64,000 nucleotides of DNA from Limnobacter sp. MED105 (GTDB lineage Bacteria; Pseudomonadota; Gammaproteobacteria; Burkholderiales; Burkholderiaceae_B). Location: positions 124,001 to 188,000 of the forward strand of contig NZ_ABCT01000001.1 in the NCBI RefSeq assembly GCF_000170915.1, written 5' to 3'. The position numbers and the translations under genes were made by a program. Positions 10,285 to 26,070 of this stretch are shown piece by piece. Position 1 is the stretch's first letter. The number at the start of each line of letters is the position of its first letter. A model generated the notes under the pieces. That model did no database searches. It had not been told where the DNA came from and saw only the letters and a list, made by a program, of their open reading frames with translations.

Positions 10285-10877
10285 GCAGCGGCCACCGCGG
10301 CTTCAATTTCAGCGAAGGTGCTGGCTTTGACAGGGTCCATCACGGGAATGCCCATTTGCCGCGCAATTTGTGTAGAAGAGAACAAACCCACTACACGCAT
10401 TTTGCCTGTGCGGTTGTCGACCACCAGTGCGTGTTGCCGGTTGTGTTCGCGCAGTGTGGCAATAATGTGACCCACTTCAGCGCGCGATACGGCACCGAAC
10501 TCCAGAAACTCCAGGTCTGGCAGTTTCACCATCACGTCATTCACCGTGAGTTCAGGCACATTGCGATTGCTGGAAGAAGCTTCCTTGATTGCGCGCTCGC
10601 CGGCCAGGTCATTGGCGGTGAGCAGGCCTTGCAAATGACCATGGCTGTTTCTAACGAACAGCAGCTTGACGCCACACACGATCATGGTGGTGCGGGCTTG
10701 CTCCAGCGTTTCAGAGCCGGAGATGCTGACGGGGTGTACACGCCGAAGGTCTGTCATGGCGTCGAAGGCTGGCGAATCTGCTGTCAGCTTCAAAGGGCGG
10801 CTGGGGTCGCTGACCGTGATGGTGTCGGTGGCGCTGGCGCTGATGTGTTCGAGTGCTTGGTAGTGTTGTCTGATCAT
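10281..10877 (-). CDS. CBS-domain pair protein
   Basis: About 198 residues with two CBS-type repeats (around residues 45-110 and 120-190; VVGLFSSTQIARQMG is a typical repeat end). CBS pairs bind adenine nucleotides and act as energy or redox sensors; no catalytic domain is attached. The frame is open to 11021, but the ATG at 10877 has AAGGG seven bases upstream and starts just before the recognisable domain. A 218-base gap upstream (10878-11095) contains no gene that I can support. Confidence 0.78.
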   Translation of the reverse strand: MIRQHYQALEHISASATDTITVSDPSRPLKLTADSPAFDAMTDLRRVHPVSISGSETLEQARTTMIVCGVKLLFVRNSHGHLQGLLTANDLAGERAIKEASSSNRNVPELTVNDVMVKLPDLEFLEFGAVSRAEVGHIIATLREHNRQHALVVDNRTGKMRVVGLFSSTQIARQMGIPVMDPVKASTFAEIEAAVAAA

Positions 10878-11095
10878 GTTGAAACCCTTTTTGACACACA
10901 GTCGTATTGCATCCGCAGGCTTGGGGCCGACGGGCGAGTTTGCAGGACGGACTGCATGCAAAAGAGGGTACAGGCACAAGGGTTTGTTGCCTTGTGTCGT
11001 GGCAGCGCAAGCACCGTCCACTAGAAATTTAGTCTACGCTGCTGGCGAAAAGTTTCAAGTCAGTAAAAGCCCGGAGGACACAGGTGAATACCCGC

Positions 11096-15875: not shown

Positions 15876-15895
15876 GGCATGCCTCGATGCATGCC
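15876..15895. promoter_or_regulatory. Inverted repeat upstream of the acylase gene
   Basis: GGCATGC (15876-15882) and GCATGCC (15889-15895) are perfect 7-bp arms with a 6-base spacer. They lie 26 bases before the chosen GTG start, in the leader, so they could be an operator or an mRNA hairpin. Confidence 0.4.
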
Positions 15896-15920
15896 CAGAA
15901 TTAAAGCAGAGGAGACAGCA

Positions 15921-18620
15921 GTGATTACAGGCTTGAAGAACAAGGCCGCGTTGCGGCGCGGGTTACGGGTAGGCGCGGTCAGCGTCGCCCTGTTGGTGTT
16001 GGCGGGTTGCCTGGGCAGCAGCAACAACGAGATTGCCGGCACGGACGGCCGCACCAATCCGAACGAGAACCCCAACCTGAAATACGACGTGAGCATTACC
16101 CGCACCACCTATGGCGTGCCGCACATTCGTGCCAAGGACTATGGCAGTTTGGGTTATGGGCAGGGCTATGCCTTTGCACAGGATAACCTGTGTGTGTTTC
16201 TTGAAGACCTGTTGACGATTCGCGGTGAGCGCTCCCGCTTTTTTGGACCCGACGGCACCTACACCATTGAGCCCAATGGTTCGACGGCCAACAACGTGGC
16301 CAGCGACTTCTTCTGGAAAAGCCTGTTTGCCTTTGAAGAAGAGGGCGCCGATGGGGTGACCCGCAATGCCTGGCAGCGCACGCGCGACAAAACCATTCCT
16401 GATTTTCAGAACGTGGTGACGGGTTATGCAGATGGTGTAAACCGCTACATTGCTGAACTGAAAGCAGGCGAGCATGAGTACGAGCAGGCCGACGGCAGCA
16501 AGGTGCCTGCGCATGCCGCTTGTGCCGATGCTGAATGGCTGGCCCCAATTACGACAGACGACATGTATCGCCGCTTTGTGCGCCTGGCTGTGTTGGCCAG
16601 CAGTTCGGTGTTTGTGACGGAAATTGGCAATGCCCAACCTCCGGGTGTGTTGCCCGGCTTGCCCGCGGGCGGTGGTGCCCCTGCCTTGCCTGTGGCCAGT
16701 GCGGGTAAAAAAGCCAAAAGCCCAGGTATTGCCGAGCAAGTGGCTTTGCTCAAGGCCAACCCGAACCCCTTCACTGCGATGCAGAACAAGGATCACTTTG
16801 GCAGCAATATGTACGCCTTTGGCAAAGACGCAACCGCCAATGGTCAATCACTGGTGTACGGTAATCCTCACTTTCCTTGGAAGGGCACCGAGCGCTTGTA
16901 CCTGAGCCACAATATCCTGGAGTTGAACGGCGAGAAGGCCATGGACATCATGGGTGTGGGCCTTTATGGCGTGCCTGCCGTGTTGATTGGCTTTAATGAG
17001 CACGTGGCGTGGAGCCACACGGTTTCAACGGCTTTCCGCTTTACGCTTTACCAGTTGCAAATCAACCCGGCCAATCCGACCCAGTACATGTACGAAGGTG
17101 AAATGGTCGACATGATAGCCCTGCCCACCGAAATTGAAGTGAAGCAGCCCGATGGCAGCATTACGACCATGCAGCGCACCATGTACCGCAGCCACTACGG
17201 GCCCATGTTGGTATTGGAGGCCAGTGGAGTACCGGTGCTGGGCTGGAACCAGTTGATGGCTTTTACCCTGCGGGATGCAAACGTGGAGAATGATCGCCTG
17301 ATCAACCAGTTTGCCAAGTGGAACATGGCGAAGTCGCTGGAAGAATTTATTGGTTTACATGGCAGTGAACTGGGTGTGCCTTGGGTCAATACCGTGGCCA
17401 GCGGCCCTGGCAAGCCTGCGTACTATGGTGATGTGACTGTGGTGCCGCATGTGACCGATGAAAAAATTGCCGATTGCGCAGCTGAGCCTTTCAACACTGT
17501 GGTGGGCCAACTTTCACCAGGCTTGCCCGTACTGAATGGATCTCGCGAGGCCTGCGAATGGGGCAGCGACCCCGATGCACCTGCGCCTGGCATTTTTGGC
17601 CCAGGTAATTTGCCCACGCTTCAGCGTGACGATTACGTAACCAACTGCAACGACAGCCATTGGTTAAGCAATCCACGTCAGCCACTGACTGGATTTGACC
17701 GGATTATTGGAGACGAAAACGCAGAGCGAACTTTGCGCACCCGCTTGTGTACCCTTCAAGCGGAACGCCGTTTGGGTGGTGCCGATGGTTTGCCAGGCAA
17801 CCGGTTTACGCAAGATAACCTGAAAGAAGTTGCACTGAACAGTGAAATTTACTCGGCGACGCTGGCCAAGCAATCAGTGGTCGATGCGTTGTGCCAAGTG
17901 CCTGTGCTGCTCAGTACCAGTTTAATGCCTGTGCAAACAGCCGACGCCTGCGCTGCTTTGGGTGCGTGGGACGGCAAGGCCAACCTGGAGAGCAAAGGTG
18001 CGCACCTATGGCGCGAATTTTGGAGCCGAGCCATTGCCAACCCAGGTGGTTTGCCGGTGGGCGTGCCGCAATTGCATTTGCCGTTTGATGTGCCTGTGCC
18101 TTTGTCACTGCCGACCAATTTGTGGGCGAATGGCTTCAATGCGGTTGATCCGGTCAACACCCCCAACACGCTGAATATTGCCAATCCATTTACGGCTGCT
18201 GCCCTGGCCGATGCGATTTTGGCGGTGCAAACGGCTGGTTTTGCGCTGGATGAGCCTTTGGGCAATATTCAAAAATCTGGAGTACAGGCCAGTGCCACGC
18301 CAATTTTCGGGGGTACAAGCCCTGAAGGTGCGTTTACGATTGTGAGTACAGAACCAAGCCGTCTGAATTCTGAAGGCTACAAAGTTACGTACGGCAACAG
18401 CTACATTCAGGCTGTGACCTGGGATGCGAATGGCAAACCACAGGCCGACGCCATGTTGACCTATTCACTCTCGACTGACCCAGCCAACCCACACTTTGAC
18501 GATTACACCAAGGCTTATTCTCAGAAAAACTGGGCTCGCTTGCCCTACACCGATGCTCAAATTCAGGCGGCCAAAGTGGGTCAAACCAAGGTGTTACGCC
18601 AGCAAAGGGCGTCAAACTGA
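15921..18620 (+). CDS. Penicillin-acylase-family Ntn-hydrolase, predicted lipoprotein
   Basis: 899 residues from a GTG start with AGGAGA six bases upstream; a frame extension to 15879 has no ribosome site. The N-terminus is a lipoprotein signal (LLVLAGC, lipobox cysteine), so it is probably periplasmic and membrane-tethered. The family is made as one chain and self-cleaves before a catalytic serine. Here that is S295 in HFGSNMYAFG, with an alpha-chain signature RTTYGVPHIRA near residue 50. Relatives cleave penicillins, acyl-homoserine lactones or other acyl amides, and which applies here cannot be told. A strong terminator follows. Confidence 0.87.
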   Translation: MITGLKNKAALRRGLRVGAVSVALLVLAGCLGSSNNEIAGTDGRTNPNENPNLKYDVSITRTTYGVPHIRAKDYGSLGYGQGYAFAQDNLCVFLEDLLTIRGERSRFFGPDGTYTIEPNGSTANNVASDFFWKSLFAFEEEGADGVTRNAWQRTRDKTIPDFQNVVTGYADGVNRYIAELKAGEHEYEQADGSKVPAHAACADAEWLAPITTDDMYRRFVRLAVLASSSVFVTEIGNAQPPGVLPGLPAGGGAPALPVASAGKKAKSPGIAEQVALLKANPNPFTAMQNKDHFGSNMYAFGKDATANGQSLVYGNPHFPWKGTERLYLSHNILELNGEKAMDIMGVGLYGVPAVLIGFNEHVAWSHTVSTAFRFTLYQLQINPANPTQYMYEGEMVDMIALPTEIEVKQPDGSITTMQRTMYRSHYGPMLVLEASGVPVLGWNQLMAFTLRDANVENDRLINQFAKWNMAKSLEEFIGLHGSELGVPWVNTVASGPGKPAYYGDVTVVPHVTDEKIADCAAEPFNTVVGQLSPGLPVLNGSREACEWGSDPDAPAPGIFGPGNLPTLQRDDYVTNCNDSHWLSNPRQPLTGFDRIIGDENAERTLRTRLCTLQAERRLGGADGLPGNRFTQDNLKEVALNSEIYSATLAKQSVVDALCQVPVLLSTSLMPVQTADACAALGAWDGKANLESKGAHLWREFWSRAIANPGGLPVGVPQLHLPFDVPVPLSLPTNLWANGFNAVDPVNTPNTLNIANPFTAAALADAILAVQTAGFALDEPLGNIQKSGVQASATPIFGGTSPEGAFTIVSTEPSRLNSEGYKVTYGNSYIQAVTWDANGKPQADAMLTYSLSTDPANPHFDDYTKAYSQKNWARLPYTDAQIQAAKVGQTKVLRQQRASN

Positions 18621-18630
18621 GCATGTTACA

Positions 18631-18663
18631 AATGTTAAATTGACAATAAGTGTAAAGTAACAA
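18631..18663 (+). repeat. 33-bp conserved element, copy 1
   Basis: AATGTTAAATTG, six variable bases, then AGTGTAAAGTAACAA. The same blocks with the same spacing recur at 22456-22488. TGTTA and TAACA form inverted ends (TGTTA-N20-TAACA). It sits between the acylase stop and the first SBP gene. TTGACA at 18640 could be a -35 box. Confidence 0.7.
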
Positions 18664-18665
18664 TA

Positions 18666-18689
18666 AAAGGGGGCGAAAGCCCCCTTTTT
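18666..18689 (+). terminator. Rho-independent terminator after the acylase gene
   Basis: GGGGGC (18669-18674), a GAAA tetraloop, GCCCCC (18679-18684) and five T residues. It directly follows the 33-bp element. Confidence 0.9.
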
Positions 18690-18752
18690 CTTCGATTGCT
18701 TCCTTGCAAAACGCGCACTGTGGGTGAGTTATCACTTTGATTTCAAGCCTCC

Positions 18753-19742
18753 ATGTTCAGTCGCCTGCGTGTTGCGCGTTTTTCCACCGTCATGTTTTGT
18801 GCATTCATGGGCTTGTCTTCCTTGGGATGGGCCAGTGAGCCACGCATTGCAGTGTCCAAATCGCCGTTATCTTTGCCATTTTTTGTGGCCAAAGACAAAA
18901 ACCTGTTTGCAAAGCACAAGGTTGAGCCGGTGTTGATTGAATGCCTGGGTGGCAACCGGTGTGTGAAAGAACTGACCGATGGACGAGTGGACATGGCCAC
19001 GTCTTCGGAACTGCCATTCATGTTTGCGGTTTTTCAAGGTAAACCAATTGGCCTGGTGACCACTTTCAACACCAACAAAGACGACATGAAATTCGTGGTT
19101 CGGAAGGCGGCGGTGAAAGGTGGCACCAAGGGTTTGACTGGCAAGCGAATTGGTTATGTGGAAAAGGCCTCTTCCCATTACTACATGGATTTGTTTTTGT
19201 TGTACAACGGCATTGATCCTAAAACCACAGTACCGGTGCCCATGGGCGCAGAGGCCTTGGCGGCTGCCTTGGCCAAAGGCGAGGTGGATGCAATTTCGGT
19301 GTGGGAACCCTGGGGGCAAATTGCATTGAACCTTGGTGGTGACGAGGTGGCAGTAGTTGATGCTCCGAAGTTGTATAGCCAAACCTTCAACCTGTTGGCC
19401 AGCAATGAATATCGCCTGGCACAAACGCGCAAATCGATTGCTGTGTTGAGTGCGCTGGACGAAGCAATTCAGTTCATCAAGAAGAACCCTGACGAGGCCA
19501 AACGCATACTGGCACGTGATGTGGGTGTTGACCTTGACACAGTGAAGGCCGCATGGCCCACCTATCAGTTCGAGTTGACTTTGCAGCAGTCACTGTTGAG
19601 TACTGTGCAAGGCCAGGCAAGGTGGGCGAGGCGTGAAGGGCATGTTGCCCCAACCCTGGCTGAACCCGAATTTCTGAATTTTATTGACGCTAGCCTGCTG
19701 CGAAAAATTAAGCCCAATGCCGTTGATTTTGTGTATCCATGA
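18753..19742 (+). CDS. NMT1/SsuA-type periplasmic substrate-binding protein 1
   Basis: 329 residues with a signal peptide (GLSSLGWA-SEPRI). The body is of the NMT1/SsuA/TauA class that binds thiamine precursors, sulfonates or nitrate-like ligands: LSLPFFVAKDKNLFAKHKVEP near the start, SSELPFMFAVFQ, and DAISVWEPWGQIA. No ABC permease or ATPase is nearby. Its stop overlaps the start of a hybrid histidine kinase (ATGA), so the two are translationally coupled. I infer that it feeds ligand information to that kinase. It is a paralogue of the protein at 22577 (shared STVQGQARWA/STLQGQARWA and VDFVY ends). Confidence 0.85.
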   Translation: MFSRLRVARFSTVMFCAFMGLSSLGWASEPRIAVSKSPLSLPFFVAKDKNLFAKHKVEPVLIECLGGNRCVKELTDGRVDMATSSELPFMFAVFQGKPIGLVTTFNTNKDDMKFVVRKAAVKGGTKGLTGKRIGYVEKASSHYYMDLFLLYNGIDPKTTVPVPMGAEALAAALAKGEVDAISVWEPWGQIALNLGGDEVAVVDAPKLYSQTFNLLASNEYRLAQTRKSIAVLSALDEAIQFIKKNPDEAKRILARDVGVDLDTVKAAWPTYQFELTLQQSLLSTVQGQARWARREGHVAPTLAEPEFLNFIDASLLRKIKPNAVDFVYP

Positions 19743-22456
19743 AACCTTTGTTGCGACTTAAACAAGGCGTATTAATAGCCTTGGTTCTATTGATTGGCCT
19801 TGTGGTGGTGGCAACTGCTACGGTCGTTTCCATTAACCAGCAACGCAATGACGTGCTGGAACAAAGCGTTGCTGCGCGCAAAATTTCCCGGTTGTCCACG
19901 CGTATGCTGGTGTTGACGCACACTGCATCGACCTACATGACCGAGACCAATATTCGCCAGTGGTGGGTGGTGCATCAATCGATTTCCGATGAGCTTGATC
20001 ACCTTCATTTTTCGGATGAGAGCGGAGAAATTTCCACCAGGCTGGAGGAGCGACTTAGCGACTTTGCGGCCCTGTTCAGTGGTTTTTCGCACATGCTGAC
20101 TTCTCAGGAAATTGATTTGGACGAAAGGCGCAGCAGTGTGTTGACCGACCGTTTGATTTCCGAGGCTGAACAACTCGCAGAACTGAGTTACAAAGTCTCA
20201 GATGCTGCGTTTTCACTGCAGGAGGCCCTGACACAGAAGCGAAGAAATATCCTGTTCATTTTCGCTGTGTTGTTTACGGCGAATTCTTTCTTGTTGTTGC
20301 TTTTGATTCGTTACCGGGTGGTTAGGCCACTTGCGCAAATTGAAAACGTGGCCAATGCGATGCGTGCGGGCGATTTGAATGCACGTTGCAATTTGCCGGA
20401 AGGCGATGAACTTGGCGATGTGGCCGCAGCGCTCGATTCACTGGCCCTTGAACTCAACAACAGACTGGCCGATTTAACATCGACCACGCACTTGCTGGAG
20501 GTGGCTGGCCGAATGTGTGGTGTGGGTGCATGGACTCTGGATGTCAACACCCATGCGTTAAGTTGGTCAAAACAAATTTACGACATTGTTGAAGCAGACT
20601 TCACGCATCAGCCTACACTGGAAGAAGCGATTGCACTTTATCCCGAAGATTCCGCTGCGAAGCTGTCCAAAGCACTGGAGGATGCTACGCGCGCAGGCTG
20701 CGATGTCAACATTGAACTGCAATTGCGCACCTACAAAGGCAAGCTGATCTGGGTGCATGTGTTTGGCGAAGTCATTTGGCGGGGGGATGGTGCACAGCGC
20801 AAACCCTGGATGATTCGGGGCGCTTTTCAAAATATTACCGAACGTCGCCGCGTTGAAGAGGAAATTCGACAGGCCAAAGAATTGGCCGAATCGGCCAGCA
20901 AGGCCAAAGGCGAATTTTTGTCAAACATCAGCCATGAAATTCGCACCCCACTGAATGCAGTGGTGGGGCTGGCTTACATCTTGAAGCAAAGCAAGCTGGA
21001 CTCATCTCAACTGGAGTTTGTTGAAAAACTTGAAAATGCAGGCCGAGGCCTGATTGATTTGGTCAGTGGCGTGCTGGATGTTTCCAAGATTGAAGCTGGT
21101 GCCATGGAGTTGGAAACCCGGCCATTCTCAGCCCGGCAATTAATGGATTCGCTGGCTGATTTAATGACGGGTTCCCTGGCGGACAAGCCCATCGAGTTTG
21201 TAGTTGCTGTAGCCCCCAATGTGCCCGACCAGTTGGTGGGTGATGAAACCAAACTAAGGCAGGTACTGGTGAATTTGGCGGGCAATGCCATCAAGTTCAC
21301 CGAGAATGGCTATGTCAAGGTGGGCATAACTTTGGATCAGCTGGACACCCAACATTGCGTGTTGCGTTTCATTGTTCAAGACACAGGTTTGGGCATGGAT
21401 GCTGGTGCCATGAAGCGTTTATTCCAGTCATTCTCCCAAGCAGATTCATCAATTTCTCGCCGTTTCGGCGGCACGGGCATTGGCTTGGCCTTGAGCCAAA
21501 AACTGGTGGAGTTGATGGGCGGCACTATATCGGCCGTGAGCGCACCGGGGCAGGGTAGCCTGTTTGCATTCTCGCTGATGTTGAACCTGGATTCGCAGGC
21601 CAGCGCAGCGCCTGTTGCCACCGGGTTTGCTTACGATGTGGTGGTCATTGACAGTTTCCAAACCCAACTTGAAAGTGTGGCCCAAATGGTGGAGTGGACC
21701 GGCGTGGTTCCCCAACGTTTTGTGAACCCGGAGCAGGCTTTGAGCTTGCCCCCTGGGCAGCGGCCACGATTGTTCGTGGTTAACAACCAGTTGAACCACA
21801 CCAGCGGGCTGGAATTGGCTGACAAACTGAAAGCCGCGCATGCCCCGGCATCTGCCAAGGTTGCCCTGATGGTGCGGCCCAAAGATGTGAAGCAAGTACA
21901 AAACCCGCTTTCCACAGGCCAACTTGATGCGGTGTTGATGAAACCCGTTTCTTTCTCGGCTTTGAAAAATGTATTGCAAGAGGCCACGGGCAATTCGCAG
22001 GGCAAGACCAGCGCTGTGAACCGTTTGTTGAATCAAAACGAGTTGGTGTTTCTTGCTGGCTTAACCGTGTTGGCTGTGGACGATCACAAACTGAATTTAA
22101 TGATTCTGAAAAAAATTCTGGAAACCCATGGAGCCAAAGTCATTTTGGCAGAATCGGGGCAAGCCGCGATTCAAGTGCTTGGTCAGCCCAACCACAGTGA
22201 TGTGGATGTGTGTTTGATGGATGTGCAAATGCCAGACATGGATGGCATGGAAACCTGCCACTACCTGCGAGACCAGATGGGCTTGCGGCAGCTGCCCATA
22301 CTGGCTTTAACTGCGGGCGTAATGGAGGCCGACCACCAGTTGGCCCTGGCTGCGGGCATGGATGAAGTGCTGGTGAAGCCCTTGCAAATTGACAAAGTGC
22401 TGGACGCTGTAAAGCGTTGGGGTGCGCAGATCAAGTTGAGAGCTCAAATACACTGA
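19739..22456 (+). CDS. Hybrid sensor histidine kinase (TM-HAMP-PAS-HisKA-HATPase-REC)
   Basis: 905 residues. Two transmembrane helices (about 10-32 and 170-192) flank a periplasmic helical sensor of ~140 residues. Then come a HAMP domain, a PAS-like domain (about 245-375) and HisKA with H399 in SNISHEIRTP. The HATPase has NLAGNAIKFTE, DTGLGM and FGGTGIGLALS. A degenerate receiver-like segment (YDVVVIDSFQTQ) precedes a C-terminal receiver with phosphoacceptor D828 (CLMDVQMPDMDG). It overlaps the preceding binding-protein gene by four bases, which suggests that the periplasmic protein is its ligand sensor. No output regulator is encoded beside it. Confidence 0.88.
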   Translation: MKPLLRLKQGVLIALVLLIGLVVVATATVVSINQQRNDVLEQSVAARKISRLSTRMLVLTHTASTYMTETNIRQWWVVHQSISDELDHLHFSDESGEISTRLEERLSDFAALFSGFSHMLTSQEIDLDERRSSVLTDRLISEAEQLAELSYKVSDAAFSLQEALTQKRRNILFIFAVLFTANSFLLLLLIRYRVVRPLAQIENVANAMRAGDLNARCNLPEGDELGDVAAALDSLALELNNRLADLTSTTHLLEVAGRMCGVGAWTLDVNTHALSWSKQIYDIVEADFTHQPTLEEAIALYPEDSAAKLSKALEDATRAGCDVNIELQLRTYKGKLIWVHVFGEVIWRGDGAQRKPWMIRGAFQNITERRRVEEEIRQAKELAESASKAKGEFLSNISHEIRTPLNAVVGLAYILKQSKLDSSQLEFVEKLENAGRGLIDLVSGVLDVSKIEAGAMELETRPFSARQLMDSLADLMTGSLADKPIEFVVAVAPNVPDQLVGDETKLRQVLVNLAGNAIKFTENGYVKVGITLDQLDTQHCVLRFIVQDTGLGMDAGAMKRLFQSFSQADSSISRRFGGTGIGLALSQKLVELMGGTISAVSAPGQGSLFAFSLMLNLDSQASAAPVATGFAYDVVVIDSFQTQLESVAQMVEWTGVVPQRFVNPEQALSLPPGQRPRLFVVNNQLNHTSGLELADKLKAAHAPASAKVALMVRPKDVKQVQNPLSTGQLDAVLMKPVSFSALKNVLQEATGNSQGKTSAVNRLLNQNELVFLAGLTVLAVDDHKLNLMILKKILETHGAKVILAESGQAAIQVLGQPNHSDVDVCLMDVQMPDMDGMETCHYLRDQMGLRQLPILALTAGVMEADHQLALAAGMDEVLVKPLQIDKVLDAVKRWGAQIKLRAQIH

Positions 22457-22488
22457 ATGTTAAATTGTGAACTAGTGTAAAGTAACAA
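22456..22488 (+). repeat. 33-bp conserved element, copy 2
   Basis: AATGTTAAATTG, six variable bases, AGTGTAAAGTAACAA, identical in both blocks and in spacing to 18631-18663. It begins within the stop codon of the first hybrid kinase. It is followed at 22493-22511 by AGGGGTTGAAATCACCCT, a weaker hairpin placed like the terminator after copy 1. Confidence 0.7.
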
Positions 22489-22576
22489 ACTAAGGGGTTG
22501 AAATCACCCTTATTCACCCATGCGAGTTGTTCTCATCGATGCAACATGGAGTTGTTAAATCGTGAGGGCAGGCGCT

Positions 22577-23569
22577 ATGAAACAATTTCAGTTGAGCACA
22601 TGGATCTACTCCCTGCTGCTGGCTTTGCTTTTGGCTGCTCAAAGTGCAGACGCTGCCGATGTGGTGCGAATTGCAGTGCCGCCCACTGTCATGTCTTTGC
22701 CGGTGTACGTGGCCACGGAGCGAAAGTTCTTCGAGAAACACCAAGTGAATCCCGTGCTGATTGAGTGCAGCAGTGGACAGGACTGCATCAAAGCTCTGGG
22801 GCAGGGAAAGGCTGACCTTGCCAGTTCTTCGGAATTGCCGGTGATGTTTGCTGCATACGACAACAATCCGATTTCGGTGCTGGCTACCCTGGTGACCAAC
22901 AAGGACGATCTGAAGTTTCTGGTGTCACGCAACTTGCTCCAGAACGGTCGCTTGAGTCTGGCTGGCAAGCGAATTGGCTATGTACCCAAATCTTCATCGC
23001 ACTATTACATGGATACCTTTTTGTTGTTCAAGGGGGTTGATCCTCAGCAGGTAATTAAGGTGCCCATGGCCGCATCTGAACTTCCCCAAGCCTTGCAGCA
23101 AGGCCGGGTGGATGCAATTTCGATTTGGGAACCCATGGCTGAACAAGCCCTACAACTGGGTGGCCGTGACATTGTGCAAGTGGATGCGCCACGCCTTTAT
23201 ACCCAAACCTTCAATGTCAGTGTGCGAAACCAATTCAAAAACAAACACGCGGCGCAAGTGCGCGGTGTGATGAAAGCCTTGAGCGAGGCAGTCGATTACA
23301 TTCGCGATTATCCCTCCAGGGCGCAGGCATTGCTGCTGAGAAAAAAAATGGTCAGCCAGGAACACATCGAGAAAAACTGGAATGACTACACCTTTCGAAT
23401 GACTTTGCAACAGTCGCTGGTGAGCACCTTGCAAGGCCAAGCCAGGTGGGCCATGCGCGAGGGTCACGTTCAGAATAATTTGCCCAAAGAACCCGAATAT
23501 TTGAACTATATTGATGCGAGCTTCCTGAGAGAACACAAATCGGGTCAAGTTGATTTTGTGTATCGCTAA
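22577..23569 (+). CDS. NMT1/SsuA-type periplasmic substrate-binding protein 2
   Basis: 330 residues with a signal peptide (AAQSADA-ADVVR). It is a paralogue of the protein at 18753: MSLPVYVATERKFFEKHQVNP against LSLPFFVAKDKNLFAKHKVEP, SSELPVMFAAY, DAISIWEPMAEQA. An ATG at 22577 with AGGG eight bases upstream is chosen over GTG at 22562. It is again without any ABC partner and is followed after 26 bases by a hybrid histidine kinase. The ligand is unknown. The repeated pairing with kinases suggests a sensor rather than a transport role. Confidence 0.85.
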   Translation: MKQFQLSTWIYSLLLALLLAAQSADAADVVRIAVPPTVMSLPVYVATERKFFEKHQVNPVLIECSSGQDCIKALGQGKADLASSSELPVMFAAYDNNPISVLATLVTNKDDLKFLVSRNLLQNGRLSLAGKRIGYVPKSSSHYYMDTFLLFKGVDPQQVIKVPMAASELPQALQQGRVDAISIWEPMAEQALQLGGRDIVQVDAPRLYTQTFNVSVRNQFKNKHAAQVRGVMKALSEAVDYIRDYPSRAQALLLRKKMVSQEHIEKNWNDYTFRMTLQQSLVSTLQGQARWAMREGHVQNNLPKEPEYLNYIDASFLREHKSGQVDFVYR

Positions 23570-23595
23570 ACGATTTTTATCCAAGTGATTGGCCA

Positions 23596-25212
23596 ATGAA
23601 CAATGTGATCGAGTACCTGCCGCACGGCTTTTGTATTGCGTGGAATCCACAACTGCTGGCCATGCACGTCATTTCAGACCTCTTGATTGCCATCGCCTAC
23701 TTCTCGATTCCAATCGGCATTGTGTACGTGGCCAAGAAGCGACCCGACGCCGAATTGCAGCCTATTTATTACCTGTTCGCGGCATTTATTCTGGCCTGTG
23801 GTGTGACGCATGTCATGGGCATTCTCACCTTGTGGGTGCCGCTGTATTACACACAGGGCATTACCAAAATTGTGACAGCTCTGGTCTCAGTGGCCACTGC
23901 AATTTATTTACTGCCCAAGTTAAAACACATCATGGCCTTACCTGACCTGGGCAAACTGACGCAAATTAATACCGCATTGGCACAGGAAATTGTGTCGAGA
24001 CGCCAAAGCGAAGCGTCGCTAAGGCAGTCCCAAGAACTCGCCTTGCAGGCTCAAAAAACGCAGGCTGCTTTTTTGGCAAACATGAGCCACGAAATTCGCA
24101 CCCCCATGAACGGCGTGCTGGGAACGCTTGATCTGTTGCTCGACACTGAATTGAAACCTGAACAACTTCAACTTGCTGCAGCTTCCAAACGCAGCGCAGC
24201 CTCCTTGCTTAGCTTGTTGAATGACATTCTCGATATTTCAAAAGTGGAAAGTGGGCAACTAACCCTGCGCCACAGCCCACTTGAACTTGCTGATGTGTTT
24301 GCCGATGTGGAAGCCGCACTGGCCTTTGATGCCAACAGCAAAGGCATTGAACTGCAATGCCCTGCAGAGCGTGTGCCCAATACAATTTACCTTGGTGATT
24401 CGGTGCGCATGCGTCAAATTTTATTGAACCTGGTGGGCAATGCAATCAAGTTCACTGATGTGGGCCACGTAAAAGTGGTTTGTCAGGAAGTGTCACGAAC
24501 CGCGCAACAAGCCGTACTCGAATTTACTGTGAAAGACACAGGCATCGGCATTGCGCCCGAGCATCAAAAAAACCTGTTCAAACGATTCACGCAGGTGGAC
24601 AACTCCAGCACACGACGCGCGCAAGGCAGCGGGCTTGGCCTTGCCATTGTTAAGGAGTTGGTCGAGCTGATGGGAGGAAAAGTTCGCTTGCACAGCGAGC
24701 CAGGGCGGGGCACTGAAATTGTGTTTTCCCTGAAATTGGGTTTGCCAGCGGATAGCGGTCAACTGAAAGGTGATGAAACAATTGAAACCACGCCAGGTAC
24801 CGATACAGCAACTGCGCCAACGGTGCAGCAATTTAACGGAAAAGTGTTGGTGGTCGAAGACGCTGCCATGAACCAAATGGTGGTGTGCAAAGTGCTTGAA
24901 CGCTTGGGTCTTGCCAGTAAGGTTGCCAACAATGGCCAGGAGGCGATTGATTTGCTTGCACAAGAGCAATTTGATTTGGTGTTAATGGATGGCCAAATGC
25001 CGGTGATGGATGGCTATGAAGCCACAGCGATGATTCGAAGTGGCAGCGTGCCGGGCATAAACCAGAATATACCTGTGGTGGCGCTGACCGCACATGCCAT
25101 GGTGGGAGAAGACAAAAAATGCCTGGATGCAGGAATGAACGACTACCTCACCAAGCCCCTGGACCGCGCGAAGTTGATTGAAGTGTTGGGCAAGTACCTG
25201 CAAAAGGCTTGA
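23596..25212 (+). CDS. Ethylene-receptor-like hybrid histidine kinase
   Basis: 538 residues. The first ~110 form three transmembrane helices that match the ethylene-binding domain of plant ETR1: ISDLLIAIAYFSIP and FILACGVTH. ETR1 residues D25, Y32, P36, I62, C65 and H69 correspond to D28, Y35, P39, I65, C68 and H72 here, at a constant offset of three; C65 and H69 hold the copper cofactor in ETR1. Then follow a coiled linker, HisKA with H165 (ANMSHEIRTP), HATPase (NLVGNAIKFTD, DTGIGI, GSGLGLAI) and a receiver with D465 (VLMDGQMPVMDG). There is no GAF domain, unlike ETR1. Actual ethylene binding is inferred, not shown. Confidence 0.88.
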   Translation: MNNVIEYLPHGFCIAWNPQLLAMHVISDLLIAIAYFSIPIGIVYVAKKRPDAELQPIYYLFAAFILACGVTHVMGILTLWVPLYYTQGITKIVTALVSVATAIYLLPKLKHIMALPDLGKLTQINTALAQEIVSRRQSEASLRQSQELALQAQKTQAAFLANMSHEIRTPMNGVLGTLDLLLDTELKPEQLQLAAASKRSAASLLSLLNDILDISKVESGQLTLRHSPLELADVFADVEAALAFDANSKGIELQCPAERVPNTIYLGDSVRMRQILLNLVGNAIKFTDVGHVKVVCQEVSRTAQQAVLEFTVKDTGIGIAPEHQKNLFKRFTQVDNSSTRRAQGSGLGLAIVKELVELMGGKVRLHSEPGRGTEIVFSLKLGLPADSGQLKGDETIETTPGTDTATAPTVQQFNGKVLVVEDAAMNQMVVCKVLERLGLASKVANNGQEAIDLLAQEQFDLVLMDGQMPVMDGYEATAMIRSGSVPGINQNIPVVALTAHAMVGEDKKCLDAGMNDYLTKPLDRAKLIEVLGKYLQKA

Positions 25213-25230
25213 GCGAATTTCAGACAGGGT

Positions 25231-25587
25231 TCACGCAGCTTGCATGCTTTTTCTCAGGGCCAGAATGTGGCGTGCAATTTCACGCAGGGAATCGAGTGCC
25301 TGAATGCAGCCCGACGCGTCGCCTTCTTTGGCTGCTTGCTCAAGGTGTTGAACTTTTGGCAAGAACCGCTCTAACCCGAGGTTCTGCGCGACACCTTTGA
25401 AGTAATGTGCTTTGCTGGCCAACCCTGTGTAATCTCCCGTATGAACCCGGCTCAACAAGTTGGCCTGTTCTTTCGCGAACTCATCGAGAAACAAATCGAG
25501 AATTTCAAGCAGCAAAGCCGAGTCTCCACACAGGCGGTCCAGCGTGGTTTCCAAATCAATCTCGGCCGATAAATGACTTAAGTTCAT
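25231..25587 (-). CDS. HPt-domain phosphotransfer protein
   Basis: 118 residues, a four-helix histidine phosphotransfer domain. The phosphorylatable H61 lies in the family motif SKAHYFKGVAQNLGL. It has no catalytic or output domain. It is convergent with the ethylene-receptor-like kinase, 18 bases away. Hybrid kinases ending in a receiver need an HPt to pass phosphate on, so this protein is the natural partner of one or both kinases in the block. The final response regulator is not encoded here. It ends close to the start of the region upstream of the thioesterase gene. Confidence 0.87.
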   Translation of the reverse strand: MNLSHLSAEIDLETTLDRLCGDSALLLEILDLFLDEFAKEQANLLSRVHTGDYTGLASKAHYFKGVAQNLGLERFLPKVQHLEQAAKEGDASGCIQALDSLREIARHILALRKSMQAA

Positions 25588-25596
25588 CTCTTCAGT

Positions 25597-26070
25597 CTAC
25601 TTCAAATTGTTCATGCGCTCTTCATGTTCTTTGCGCAATATTTTGCGCAACTCGGCGTTGGCATGCCGCTTCTTTTCTTCGTCAGTGCTGGGTTCCAGAG
25701 GAGGCACTTTGCCAGGAGTTCCATCGGCGTTCATGGCCACCATGGTGAAAAAGCAACTGTTGGTGTGAGTGGCAATGCCTTTGTGAATGTCTTCAGACAC
25801 CACCTTGATGCCCACCTCCATTGAGGTGTTGCCGGTGTAATTGACACTGGCCAGGAAGGTCACCAGTTCACCCACACGAATGGGCTGGCGAAACAACACC
25901 CGATCAACTGAAAGCGTGACCACGTACATGCCCGCATAACGGCTTGCACAGGCATAGGCCACCTGATCGAGCAATTTCAGAATATGCCCCCCATGCACCT
26001 TGCCGCTGAAGTTGGCCATGTCGGGGGTCATCAGCACGGTCATGCTGAGCTGGTGGTTGGGAAATGGCAT
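25597..26070 (-). CDS. Acyl-CoA thioesterase (YciA/BACH hot-dog family)
   Basis: About 157 residues of the hot-dog fold. MTPDMANFSGKVHGGHILKLLDQVAY carries the family asparagine and HGG, with the catalytic aspartate in LLDQVA; SVDRVLFRQPIRVGELV and NYTGNTSMEVGI follow. YciA-type enzymes hydrolyse short- to long-chain acyl-CoA. The frame is open far upstream to 26541, but this overlaps the divergent YdcF-like gene and shows no domain, so I place the start at the ATG at 26070. It has a charged C-terminal tail (EEKKRHANAELRKILRKEHEE). Confidence 0.87.
   Translation of the reverse strand: MPFPNHQLSMTVLMTPDMANFSGKVHGGHILKLLDQVAYACASRYAGMYVVTLSVDRVLFRQPIRVGELVTFLASVNYTGNTSMEVGIKVVSEDIHKGIATHTNSCFFTMVAMNADGTPGKVPPLEPSTDEEKKRHANAELRKILRKEHEERMNNLK

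Follow-up and report, generated by a model that had tools for sequence, protein, structure and literature searches.

A Limnobacter membrane sensor that probably senses ethylene

Does a hybrid histidine kinase of Limnobacter sp. MED105 sense ethylene, and with which of its gene neighbors would it form a signaling pathway? The gene lies in a stretch of 64,000 nucleotides of contig NZ_ABCT01000001.1, here called the window, between genes for a binding protein and a single-domain Hpt protein (Table 1). Judged by its sequence, the receptor is a well-supported, ordinary member of the known ethylene-receptor family and not a new type of system, and this Limnobacter membrane sensor probably senses ethylene.

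Table 1. Features of the window, with three divergent Limnobacter receptors given by locus
Feature	Coordinates	Strand	Basis and remarks
Ethylene-receptor-type hybrid histidine kinase	23596..25212	+	ORF (ATG at 23596, stop ends 25212), Pfam ETR1_N, HisKA, HATPase_c, Response_reg; 538 aa
Ethylene-binding-type domain, residues 1-115	23596..23940	+	Pfam, alignment, predicted helices, dN/dS
HisKA and HATPase_c, residues 155-385	24058..24750	+	Pfam, motifs
Receiver domain, residues 416-538	24841..25209	+	Pfam, motifs
Single-domain Hpt protein, 118 aa	25231..25587	-	Pfam Hpt, 33.9 bits against a cut-off of 24.6; convergent with the receptor gene
SBP2, NMT1/SsuA-type binding protein	22577..23569	+	26 bp upstream of the receptor gene; facultative neighbor
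HK1, hybrid kinase	19739..22456	+	HAMP-PAS-HisKA-HATPase and two receiver stretches; PAS match below the Pfam cut-off
SBP1, binding protein	18753..19742	+	SBP2 paralogue
Divergent receptor, L110	6149-8134
Divergent receptor, L118	6281-8326
Divergent receptor, L119	10999-13047

Domain order and the ethylene/copper site

The profile search with the ethylene-binding domain, proposed in the earlier note as a check, places ETR1_N at residues 20-114 of the receptor (114.5 bits, E 2.9e-33, Pfam cut-off 27). It is followed by HisKA (156-220), HATPase_c (267-381), and Response_reg (417-530). Neither GAF nor PAS was matched by Pfam at E<=0.001, so that the receptor lacks the GAF domain which separates membrane domain and kinase in plant-like receptors. 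The kinase output of the ETR1-type family is present: beside HisKA and HATPase_c there is a phospho-acceptor, H165, within SHEIRTP, and the ATPase motifs are intact, with an N box (NLVGNAIKF) from 278 and G boxes at 314 (DTGIG) and 344 (GSGLGL). The receiver carries D465 in the motif VLMDG, and also T498 and K520.

An AlphaFold2 model built from nine close sequences (the window receptor and those of eight relatives' loci) places helices at 18-48, 55-80, 84-113, and 118-139, at a moderate mean pLDDT of 73.7. The first three are predicted to span the membrane, and each coincides with a hydropathy peak; the loops between helices are short, and the model contains no periplasmic domain. Foldseek comparison of the model with the PDB gave no match at E<=0.001, and no solved ETR1 membrane domain was found there for comparison; a PDB sequence search gave no match at E<=1.

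The correspondence of D28, Y35, P39, I65, C68, and H72 with D25, Y32, P36, I62, C65, and H69 of ETR1, proposed in the earlier note, is borne out by alignment, which adds I38 (ETR1 I35) to the site and K91 and S98 (K91 and S98 in ETR1) as further matches. The alignment is not, as the earlier note had supposed, free of gaps: ETR1 has three more residues in its TM2-TM3 loop, the first ~20 residues align poorly, and identity to ETR1 residues 16-110 amounts to 34/91 (37.4%) with four gapped columns. The ETR1 sequence agrees with the numbered residues in PMC12643061 and PMC6586836; six of the seven site residues are named there, and the seventh, Y32, is given in the earlier note.

All seven site residues (the D25, Y32, I35, P36, I62, C65, and H69 positions) are canonical in the 12 aligned Limnobacter receptors, that of the window included, and all are present in AzoEtr1 of Azospirillum brasilense. 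Variation is found in the wider set of 52 aligned rows, ETR1 among them: cysteine occupies the C65 position in 50 and histidine the H69 position in 50, and the D25 position holds aspartate in 43, asparagine in 6, and glutamate in 3. This count was made after removal of genus and class duplicates (L002-L006, L008, L009, L081-L090, L096-L108), the truncated L010, and the weak match L091; L092-L095 had given no match beforehand. Some relatives, such as L130 and L131, have lost site residues. The window receptor thus keeps the canonical form of the site where some relatives do not.

The receptor domain might bind Cu(I) and yet respond to copper itself or to another pi-acid ligand, such as CO or a different alkene. 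The core residues are those that define the copper site (PMC12643061), no ethylene-making gene was recognized among the scanned neighbors (ethylene-forming enzymes lay outside the search), and the genome yields only a sub-cut-off match to the ACC-deaminase model. The site as a whole makes a signal other than ethylene unlikely, since the positions kept include, besides those of C65 and H69, those of I35, P36, and I62, which PMC6586836 names as essential to the binding of ethylene, and since ethylene is bound by AzoEtr1, a proteobacterial protein in which the same residues occur (PMC11819568). The window's genome has two genes that pass the copper-ATPase cut-off, which says little about the receptor because 13 of the 14 control genomes also have one.

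Gene neighbors within the genus

The receptor gene of the window was compared in its surroundings with the loci of 11 other receptor-bearing Limnobacter genomes. The order receptor, convergent Hpt gene, then thioesterase and DUF218 genes recurs in 9 of the 12 loci (window, L109, L111-L117). Hpt orthologues, at 40-100% identity, occur in exactly nine of the 16 genus genomes, those with a syntenic receptor, and H61 is invariant in the alignment of all nine; every remaining Hpt match in the genus lies at 21-28% identity. The orthologue is absent from the genomes of the divergent receptors L110, L118, and L119, which are 661-682 residues long and have other gene surroundings. By Pfam, L110 has two receiver stretches, and L117, L118, and L119 have one each.

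Four genus genomes lack an ETR1_N match; two of them, with loci L161 and L162, were inspected, and the others are 85% and 65% complete. L161 keeps SBP1, HK1, SBP2, and the flanking genes, with a 38-codon remnant of the receptor and no Hpt gene, in an assembly of ~250 contigs where misassembly is possible. L162 keeps SBP1, HK1, and the flanking genes, and has neither receptor nor Hpt. Within the genus, therefore, receptor and Hpt come and go together at this locus. The Hpt gene is matched in its constancy beside the receptor by the thioesterase, DUF218, and acylase genes, which remain where the receptor is gone; because of this equal constancy, only the joint absence singles out Hpt. Since the two genes are adjacent, a single deletion could have removed both whatever their function. 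The co-occurrence is in line with a relay shared by receptor and Hpt, and supports it short of proof; it makes the Hpt protein, whose opposite-strand gene the earlier note passes over, a better candidate partner than the binding protein.

One evolutionary scenario was discarded. The shorter receptor of the window might have shed internal sequence on gaining an outside Hpt protein; however, L117 is long (663 residues scanned), syntenic, and accompanied by an Hpt orthologue at 40% identity, so receptor length and Hpt are not alternatives.

The earlier note had placed the receptor in an operon-like unit with a periplasmic binding protein as its partner. The arrangement itself is as described, with SBP2 encoded closely upstream on the same strand; the partnership is not sustained by the genus comparison. 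SBP2 adjoins the receptor in only 5 of the 12 loci (window, L112-L115), and matches of at least 71% are confined to 6 of the 16 genomes, those five and that of L161, where the gene persists beside the receptor remnant; in an unrooted tree these six group as a single clade. SBP2 as an obligate partner was accordingly rejected. A complete SBP1-HK1 pair lies upstream of the receptor in 7 of the 12 loci. L116 has lost SBP1, HK1, and SBP2, and L109 retains only an HK1 fragment upstream, and both keep receptor and Hpt. Thus the upstream binding-protein genes are not needed for retention of the receptor.

SBP1 and HK1 look like a sensing unit of their own, since the two binding proteins SBP1 and SBP2 are paralogues (50.8% identical over 299 residues) and the SBP1 gene overlaps that of HK1 by 4 bp. 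The genes scanned beside SBP1-HK1 (18753-22456) do not encode transporter components, and these neighbors together with the overlap suggest a binding-protein-dependent sensor.

It might still be proposed that receptor and SBP2 are one signaling unit, a dual sensor to which SBP2 presents a periplasmic solute. The shared strand, the 26-bp spacing, and the adjacency in 5 of 12 genus receptors speak for such a unit, as does a scan of 18500-25800, of low sensitivity, which gave no promoter-like site on the receptor strand. That scan found two promoter-like sites where 5.0 were expected, neither on the receptor strand, and is uninformative. The proposal is improbable when seven of 12 receptors have no SBP2 beside them, SBP2 is intact in L161 next to a 38-codon receptor remnant, its paralogue SBP1 is encoded in overlap with HK1, and the predicted receptor offers short loops only and no periplasmic domain.

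Next to the sensor cluster, at 15879-18620, is a gene for a penicillin-amidase-family protein that is PvdQ-like, though below the NCBIfam cut-off, and is possibly an acyl-homoserine-lactone acylase. The gene adjoins the cluster in nine syntenic receptor loci (that of L112 is cut by a contig end). In L116 the gap between acylase and receptor (10535-10951), read by eye as DNA, holds an apparent degenerate remnant of the end of a receiver domain, which suggests that HK1 was lost there secondarily.

Selection, relatives, and a proposed pathway

In comparisons of the window receptor with seven relatives, whole-gene dN/dS is 0.06-0.10; within the ethylene-binding-type domain it is 0.011-0.032 in six, and the seventh (L113) shows no amino-acid change. 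The values are rough, many dS values exceeding 1, and the set omits the syntenic L117 and the divergent L110, L118, and L119. The domain is under purifying selection. The notion that it is a relic, a mere membrane anchor of the kinase that has ceased to bind ethylene, could appeal to the relatives that lost site residues (L130, L131) and is very hard to credit, given that every one of the 12 genus receptors retains the seven site residues and that domain dN/dS is at most 0.032.

Other stretches of the gene behave differently. The linker between ATPase and receiver (24751-24840, residues 386-415) is hypervariable, at 16-38% identity in the seven comparisons. Between L113 (6629-8242) and the window, dS is 0.04-0.07 over residues 1-221 (domain, linker, and HisKA) and at least 0.9 from the ATPase domain onward, a jump that looks like recombination inside the receptor gene.

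The earlier note had expected an ethylene sensor with this partner to be little described in a betaproteobacterium. Rarity in the order is not supported: ETR1_N scores above cut-off in 25 of the 399 genomes sampled there, including two of Limnobacter, and a review already describes ethylene-binding domains, with a variety of outputs, from many proteobacteria (PMC7700396). With the same profile the window's genome gives a single copy and the 14 control genomes give none; matches above cut-off occur in 12 of 16 genus, 12 of 369 class, and 28 of 398 phylum genomes, each taxon sample counting the window's genome. None was found in the 11 genomes of the same family outside Limnobacter in the order sample. 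Among named near-full-length matches, the best five (L002-L006) come from three Limnobacter and two Burkholderiales MAG sources, at 78-87% identity in the best segment.

Domains were scanned in 20 relatives. Of the 24 loci outside Limnobacter that passed the cut-off in the order sample, 18 were included; one further locus lies on a plasmid, and one comes from the class sample. Seven of these ORFs extend past the examined stretch, with tails outside the scan. Absence of GAF and direct fusion to the kinase, which the earlier note had offered as distinctive, do hold for the window receptor; they do not set it apart, since 14 of the 20 relatives show no GAF within the examined stretch and AzoEtr1 is itself described as domain-PAS-kinase (PMC11819568). 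ETR1_N passes directly into HisKA in four (L134, L137, L147, L159); of these, L137 and L159, the latter from Eleftheria terrae, carry a receiver as well and so share the order of the window protein. The architecture is uncommon, not unique.

GAF was matched at E<=0.001 in the remaining six relatives, always with GGDEF (in L149 the GAF match is below the Pfam cut-off). In all, 8 of the 20 join the ethylene-binding-type domain to GGDEF or GGDEF-EAL, as GAF-GGDEF (L143, L148, L149, L152, L154, L157) or PAS-GGDEF-EAL (L133, L138), and five of the eight (L148, L149, L152, L154, L157) have asparagine at the D25 position. Such fusions suggest ethylene control of cyclic di-GMP.

The preferred reading, to which we assign a probability of roughly 0.68, is that the window protein is a Cu(I)-dependent ethylene sensor that would feed a His-Asp-His phosphorelay. 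It builds on what was observed directly: the domain with its canonical site, intact motifs in kinase, receiver, and Hpt, purifying selection, and the co-occurrence of receptor and Hpt genes. The receptor would sit in the inner membrane in the manner of ETR1, SynEtr1, and AzoEtr1, with its three N-terminal helices forming a dimer and Cu(I) held by C68 and H72, with D28 nearby. Binding of ethylene to the copper would alter the activity of the HisKA-HATPase core that directly follows; by analogy with ETR1, it would most likely lower autophosphorylation of H165. The components of a multistep phosphorelay are in place, an attached receiver (417-530, D465) and an Hpt protein with a conserved H61. 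Phosphate may thus pass from H165 to the protein's own D465, then to H61 of the adjacent Hpt protein, and on to a response regulator.

A bolder version can be put forward only tentatively, and its chances are clearly below even: that Limnobacter senses ethylene by way of a complete His-Asp-His(-Asp) phosphorelay, a hybrid kinase with a dedicated Hpt protein kept or lost together with it, in wiring like that of plant cytokinin signaling, and uses it in contact between alga and bacterium. L. alexandrii LZ-4, the source of receptor locus L004, was isolated from dinoflagellate surfaces (PMC12628687).

Direct evidence of microbial ethylene sensing by a defined receptor comes from few organisms, before Azospirillum from Synechocystis and a mycorrhizal fungus (PMC11819568). 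If the preferred reading is true, ethylene signaling would extend to alga-associated betaproteobacteria, through a receptor that 12 of the 16 genomes of this aquatic genus carry. The variation within the genus, where the receptor occurs with or without SBP1-HK1-SBP2 and is lost together with Hpt, makes the wiring testable.

Comparison with known systems

In the open-licence PMC literature, no ethylene receptor of Limnobacter appeared among the matches listed, judged by title and start of abstract, and no ethylene-binding data for a Limnobacter protein were found. Matches listed there for bacterial ethylene receptors with an HPt phosphorelay concern, by title, mostly plants.

TorT/TorS and LuxP/LuxQ are binding-protein-dependent sensor kinases. 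The receptor does not resemble them, as SBP2 lies beside 5 of 12 receptors and the receptor model has no periplasmic domain.

Plant ETR1 ends in a receiver, as the window receptor does. The two also share 34 of 91 residues in the domain, with identical copper-site residues; ETR1 differs in its GAF domain and its longer TM2-TM3 loop. Signaling by ethylene in plants mostly bypasses the kinase step (PMC11819568).

SynEtr1 (slr1212) of Synechocystis, set beside the window protein by description only, is likewise a bacterial ethylene receptor kinase, but it is also a light sensor and signals to Slr1213 (PMC11819568). The receptor of the betaproteobacterium Eleftheria terrae (WP_301261158.1) and the L137 protein, from a different genome, have the same order as the window protein, ETR1_N-HisKA-HATPase-receiver, with no GAF or PAS. 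The E. terrae locus differs in having no binding protein annotated within 5 kb of the receptor; two small ORFs beside that receptor gave no Pfam match, which, like the lack of an Hpt orthologue with the three divergent genus receptors, counts against the proposed relay.

The closest comparison is with AzoEtr1, which binds ethylene and whose residues 1-130 show saturable binding (PMC11819568). It was found by a plasmid search whose 19 records include plasmid p1 of A. brasilense Sp7. On p1 the ORF, of 525 aa, lies downstream of a release-factor-3-like ORF (recognized by eye) and overlaps a response-regulator ORF; it was identified as AzoEtr1 because length and gene order match the description in PMC11819568. 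Over 126 residues, the domain of the window receptor and AzoEtr1 show 46.8% identity, and the two proteins share the N-terminal three-helix ethylene-binding domain, the seven site residues, and a histidine kinase, with no GAF in the published description of AzoEtr1. AzoEtr1 is a domain-PAS-kinase protein with no attached receiver and an overlapping, separate gene for a single-domain response regulator (PMC11819568). Unlike AzoEtr1, the window protein has its receiver attached and is accompanied by a convergent Hpt gene.
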